64,000 nt of DNA, taken from positions 4,861,501 to 4,925,500 of the forward strand of contig NZ_CP020370.1 in assembly GCF_002813775.1 (NCBI RefSeq), in the 5' to 3' direction. Under the pieces are notes generated by a model. It searched no databases, was not told the DNA's origin, and saw only the letters and a program-made list of their open reading frames with translations. The stretch is from Candidatus Thiodictyon syntrophicum. GTDB lineage: Bacteria > Pseudomonadota > Gammaproteobacteria > Chromatiales > Chromatiaceae. Positions 34,712 to 34,911 of the stretch are shown here, piece by piece. The stretch's first letter is position 1; each line of letters opens with the position of its first letter. Made by a program: the position numbers and the translations under genes.

Positions 34712-34911
34712 GTAACGAGTCACAAACAAGGTACACCAGGGATACCGTCGTTGTCGTTGTCGTTGTCGTTGTCGTTGTCGTTGTCGGGTTATCGTAGCGG
34801 CACGGATGCTTTCGCACCCCAAAGTGCATCGCTTCTACGAATTCGATTACGATTACGACAACGACAACGACAATGCTTGTGTTTAGCTTGTAGCTTGTTC
34901 TTGACTCGTTA
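34712..34911. repeat. Hexamer-flanked repeat element, copy 2
   Basis: Begins at the stop codon of the preceding gene with TAAGTAACGAGTCA. It continues with six GTTGTC units (about 34750-34787) and a core in inverted orientation relative to copy 1 (rc reads GAAGCGATGCACTTTGGGGT, 34790-34842). GATTAC and GACAAC units follow (34847-34872), and it ends with CTTGTTCTTGACTCGTTACC. Ends and core match copy 1, but the element sits inverted. Confidence 0.85.

Follow-up and report, generated by a model that had tools for sequence, protein, structure and literature searches.

An abundant repeat with inverted hexamer arrays in "Candidatus Thiodictyon syntrophicum" is probably a non-autonomous MITE with ISAzo13-type ends

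Introduction

Eukaryotic foldback elements carry long inverted repeats on either side of a middle loop; these repeats consist of short tandem subrepeats, in variable number. The repeat family described here resembles them in its inverted arrays of short subrepeats and in its variable unit number, but differs in host and transposase; moreover, its arrays lie inside separate ISAzo13-type ends, whereas in foldback elements the terminal inverted repeats are themselves built of subrepeats. Among bacterial MITEs, BrickBuilt of Porphyromonas gingivalis consists of one direct array with a 23-nt unit and is found in 19 intergenic copies (PMC4596501). It is similar to our family in being a bacterial MITE with a tandem repeat array as its interior and an intergenic location, but our family has two inverted arrays of 6-nt units flanking a core, and more than 150 copies. 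In the Chromatiaceae, MITE-like repeats with ends matching remote IS, and with predicted stem-loops, have been described from Thiohalocapsa PB-PSB1 (PMC10907252); the IS named there are other ones, and the comparison with our family is by description only. A further class of abundant repeats is that of the REP/BIME sequences, palindromes of 20-40 bp with a GTAG or CGTC tag (PMC3733652).

A preliminary description of the window (the whole 64-kb stretch of DNA analysed here) had reported three copies of a repeat with a core between inverted hexamer arrays, and had left open whether it is a non-autonomous mobile element, a structured RNA, or a terminator-like element. We examine these possibilities using the genome of the organism, published for "Thiodictyon syntrophicum" Cad16 at 7.74 Mbp (PMC5944118), together with its relatives.

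Results

The three copies are present in the window with the core and inverted hexamer flanks attributed to them, subject to small corrections of coordinates. The 19-mer core motif matches three times, compared with 0.06 matches expected from shuffling, and scanning for modules of inverted tandem arrays returned exactly copies 1 to 3, with none in 20 Markov controls. Copy 1 (14690 to about 14868) lies on the plus strand and has only one end, which we term A (GTAACGAGTCAAGAACAGGTTAGACACAA, 14690-14718), followed by a left array of GTTGTC units (14731-14756), the core (14757-14810), and a right array of GATTAC then GACAAC units (14811-14862); there is no end B, and a stub runs to about 14868. 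Copy 2 (34712-34912) has the unusual form of an end A on both sides. Its left end (34712-34737, plus strand) is followed by the GTTGTC array (34747-34785, plus), the core (34786-34838, minus, and so on the strand opposite to that of the copy 1 core), the GATTAC/GACAAC array (34845-34873, plus), and a right end that is also of type A (TTGACTCGTTAC, 34877-34912, minus), which forms a 24-nt inverted repeat of 88% identity with 34712-34735. Copy 3 (62154-62323) has only the other end, B (62154-62184, plus), with a GTTGTC array (62217-62238, plus), the core (62238-62291, minus), and a right array (62292-62323, plus), after which end A is missing. A fourth copy (32765-32853, minus strand), absent from the preliminary description, has no core and consists of end B (32765-32792), a short GTTGTC remnant (32813-32828), and end A (32827-32853). 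What appears to be a remnant of a solo end A (TTCTTGACTCGTTACTTA, 42518-42535, minus) adjoins a different module (42360-42495), in which inverted arrays of a 10-bp unit (CGCAAATGAA) enclose a 70-bp core. Another inverted array, with a 9-bp unit (ATTTACAAG), is found at 54630-54709 between ATGATCAAGGCC motifs that resemble those of another repeat family.

Placement at gene ends, earlier proposed for all three full copies, holds only in part. Copy 2 directly abuts the TAA stop codon (34709-34711) of the upstream ORF, the first G of end B in copy 3 is the last base of the TAG stop codon of the ORF at 61084-62154, and copy 4 lies between convergent hypE-like and cyclase-like genes; copy 1 is the exception, located 17 bp upstream of the start codon of a dprA-like ORF on the minus strand.

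Genome-wide, the core has 116 matches at up to two mismatches, and end A (as in copy 1) and end B (as in copy 3) have 77 and 42 matches, respectively, at up to three, with no match for any reversed-pattern control. The edge of copy 3 is GGAACGGCTCACTAATAAGTT and not TTGACTCGTTAC. After assembly and deduplication, we count about 176 sites in this genome, a lower bound, as the copies were assembled piecewise. The canonical element is about 200 bp long and runs from end A through (CGTTGT)n(CGTAAT)m to a core of 54 bp, and from there through (GATTAC)n(GACAAC)m to end B; most two-ended copies span about 160-245 bp, and there is no gene inside. End A and end B match as terminal inverted repeats, though imperfectly, and share the pattern G(T/G)AACG(A/G)(G/T)TCA..AA.AAGTTAAACA. 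The sites fall into A-core (50), A-core-B (40), core only (31), core-B (21), inverted core (7), core-less A-B (3), core carrying another insert (3), and A-core-A (1) classes, besides solo ends. At L068, L188, and L210, and likewise at L140, L147, and L299, cores of the family contain an insertion of another repeat, which has GGCCTTGATCAT...ATGATCAAGGCC-like ends; these cases come from several species. The polarity A-core-B is the same in 114 of the 121 scorable sites, with seven inverted cores, so that the "inverted" core ascribed to copy 1 is mostly a matter of the orientation of the whole element. Mean identity to the consensus is about 0.88 for the core, 0.87 for A, and 0.83 for B; decay is roughly even, with no single protected block.

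The tips of the elements point to a preferred target. TNA flanks 108 of 195 tips (TAA 42, TTA 39, TGA 16, and TCA 11), and the left and right flanking 3-mers share 82 matching bases, compared with 68 in reshuffled pairs (p=0.003); exact identity of the two 3-mers (8 vs 4.5 expected, p=0.068) is weak evidence alone. The small number of perfect duplications suggests that many copies are old or that their ends have eroded. An empty site was found for copy 4, where our genome reads GTTGG-CGA-element-TGA-GCTACC and the sister species G079 reads GTTGG-TGA-TCTACC, the difference being precisely the element and one 3-bp repeat (CGA/TGA vs TGA); copy 4 is also missing from this site in G127, G156, and G168. 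A 3-bp duplication is supported by statistics and by this one exact empty site. The site of copy 2 is common to G107, where the element is kept, while G127 has an altered element, G156 a remnant, and G168 a lone A end; with the site full in G107 and reduced to a lone end in G168, we count this as decay. Short, without a transposase gene, in many copies, and with terminal inverted repeats and a target site duplication, the element has the features of a MITE.

A source for the ends emerged when a pattern spanning both of them was used to search sister genomes. G035 and G142 contain several near-identical termini, located in G035 mostly at contig ends, which is the signature of a multi-copy IS, and reading inward from the G142 termini leads to a transposase. 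Complete elements were located by PF07592 in G156 (L404; 1485 bp, TAA/TAA flanks, one in-frame stop) and in G107 (L405; 1560 bp, CCA/CCA flanks, an open frame of 442 codons), while in G142 the IS is present as two halves. The transposase of L405 matches the NCBIfam model for ISAzo13 family transposases (NF033519) at E=6e-121 and PF07592 at E=7e-86. Identity of the IS ends to those of our family reaches 24/29 for B and 23/29 for A, the least similar IS end having 17/29; among 6762 random G-starting 29-mers, drawn from host loci that themselves include copies of the family, one reaches the B scores and four to nine reach the A scores. Ends shared with an IS encoding an ISAzo13 transposase are thus found in L404, L405, L406/L412, and the G035 contig ends. 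The pattern of two ends and a 3-bp target duplication is the same in these sister-species IS copies (L404, L405, and L406/L412) as in our family, but the IS is 1.5 kb long and carries a transposase, whereas the family is about 200 bp long and gene-less, with arrays and a core that are not found in the IS.

These correspondences in sequence make it very probable that the hexamer-array family is a non-autonomous ISAzo13-type MITE, mobilized in trans and now largely decaying. Of the possibilities first raised, the non-autonomous mobile element is therefore the one borne out, by the inverted ends, the TNA target with its 3-bp duplication, the empty site, and the ends shared with ISAzo13-family IS of sister species. 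Movement by a RAYT tyrosine transposase, as for a REP/BIME-like repeat, would agree with the high copy number, intergenic location, and palindromic character, but is very hard to reconcile with an element of about 200 bp that has asymmetric inverted ends and makes a target duplication; compared with REP/BIME, the core has no conserved palindrome and both size and ends differ, and the shared ISAzo13 ends and 3-bp duplication contradict such an origin. In the genome itself (G000), there is no PF07592 match over the cut-off, and its three sub-threshold hits are alike, the one checked being an IS630. An autonomous ISAzo13 partner was thus not found in the same genome, which is not required for a MITE relic, and it is from this that mobilization in trans is inferred. 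Two other candidate partners were rejected: the IS5/IS1031 group, hinted at by the TNA target, since the genome has no PF13340 match; and IVP genes (PF05635), since the three in the genome lie outside the hexamer family, between other arrays. These genes (L061-L063, on G000:C1 at about 4.30 and 5.90 Mb) encode four-helix-bundle proteins like the 23S rRNA IVP and lie between short-unit tandem arrays, with units such as TGAACCC and CCCTCAC, that are partly inverted around the gene.

We then consider whether the element could instead act as a structured RNA, or be under selection as a transcription terminator or mRNA 3'-end element. An element close to the consensus folds well (z -4.9), TNA tips coincide with stop codons 29 times where 10.4 are expected, and divergent regions are depleted of sites (10/159 vs 39/208, p=5e-4), while enrichment in convergent regions is not significant (p=0.09); the gene context comes from a crude gene caller, and these gene calls are approximate. 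Such positions, close to stop codons and seldom at divergent promoters, are also what insertion at TNA targets combined with purifying selection would produce. Across 111 core regions on both strands, RNAalifold gives a consensus energy of 0, no better than column shuffles, in a test limited by the shifting register in which the arrays pair; conserved, covarying helices were thus not found, Rfam has no match for the element, and core-less and one-ended copies are common. The two arms, averaging 5.5 and 5.2 units, are uncorrelated in length (rho -0.06, p=0.48), and adjacent identical variant units occur 57 times, compared with 2.5 in shuffles, a combination of uncorrelated arms and local amplification that fits slippage and not selection for a matched hairpin. 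The variation in unit number seen between the copies of the window extends to the probable orthologous copies L134/L135. We consider a function as RNA or terminator improbable, and the structured RNA in particular is not supported by this analysis.

Outside this genome, the core and the arrays differ in their distribution. Matches to the core at E<=0.001, sought in other Chromatiaceae as earlier proposed, are found in 7 of 194 family genomes, namely in six of the eight genomes of the genus and one from another genus. Among the 80 listed matches checked from a 17-mer core scan of GTDB contigs, all true members belong to Thiodictyon or Lamprocystis; in this set, a match accompanied by two array-like hexamers (L273) turned out on inspection to be coding sequence, and the remaining matches are lone, without arrays. 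Plasmid, phage, and viral collections gave no match to the hexamer-array MITE. Inverted GTTGTC/GACAAC arrays are present in 23 of the 194 genomes and 8 of the 61 sampled Chromatiaceae genera (control 0), and in none of 365 sampled genomes from other gammaproteobacterial families. Outside the genus, they mostly surround other cores and have other ends. At least three end types that are not of the ISAzo13 type hold arrays (CTAGTGC...GAGACCG; CTTGAGCAAACC...GAATTTTTC; and CAGAACTGATG...CCCGGGTAC). The last of these belongs to our own genome, where it makes a fourth framework (L025:755, L196:2213, L198:556, and L476:1500) whose GTTGTC/GACAAC arrays enclose another core (GAATAATCCGACCACGATTAC). G188 and G139 also have type-1-like ends with different cores. 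Frameworks were assigned at a normalized score threshold of 0.36, which exceeds the 95th percentile of shuffled flanks (0.32) but not their maximum (0.39), so that single assignments are uncertain but repeated ones are not. In other Chromatiaceae genera, inverted hexamer arrays are located within CTAGTGC...GAGACCG or CTTGAGCAAACC ends at L424-L435 and L443-L475.

Discussion

Our analysis suggests a course of events in which ends A and B would correspond to the right and left ends, respectively, of an ISAzo13-type IS, and would be recognized in trans by a transposase from elsewhere, either a sister species or a copy that the lineage once had. The element would be inserted at TNA with duplication of 3 bp, and the inserts that survive would mostly be intergenic, often exactly at stop codons. 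The hexamer arrays may then lengthen and shorten through slippage, the process that we infer to lie behind their instability, and the hairpin-prone interior may be lost or truncated, which would leave copies without a core, copies with one end, and solo ends. Truncation explains the one-ended copies (50 A-core and 21 core-B) without being proven by them; the idea that they are hybrids with other ends was set aside, as their flanks are mostly unique and there is one hybrid only.

The shared arrays raise a different possibility, that the two arrays and the core between them form an independent module. Being mobile or prone to conversion, it would enter several unrelated MITE or IS frameworks or take over their ends. 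The ISAzo13 ends would then be one vehicle among several, which is compatible with an ISAzo13-type MITE and adds a second layer to it. In favor of such a module are the spread of arrays around differing cores through eight genera (23 of 194 genomes), their three or more non-ISAzo13 end types, their absence from the 365 genomes of other families, and an apparent hybrid (L035) in which a type-1 end and core are paired with another end type. However, this is the only hybrid, type-1 arrays in our genome nearly always occur together with the core and one or both ends of type 1, and no clean insertion of an array module into a known array-less framework was found, so that we regard an independent module as unlikely. 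Slightly less likely still is its broader form, in which inverted short-unit arrays, together with the core they enclose, would move or recombine independently and would have repeatedly taken unrelated transposon ends, in at least four Chromatiaceae frameworks, with a similar design using other units around the IVP genes here. The presence of the array module in unrelated frameworks may go back to recombination between elements, to an independent module, or to convergence.

With an ISAzo13-type MITE as the preferred reading, the hexamer-array family had no name as far as we searched, in agreement with the preliminary description, although it belongs to a known kind of element. No MITE derived from ISAzo13 turned up in a literature search; the family is new as far as searched, and its interior is unusual. 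A very abundant and so far unexplained repeat of purple sulfur bacteria can be given a probable source, tied to ISAzo13 elements. Gene annotation in these genomes, and the 3' ends of their genes, are affected by the elements, which provide stop codons and are located at gene ends. The finding also raises a puzzle, in that one inverted hexamer module is found across a bacterial family within transposon-like elements whose ends are unrelated.
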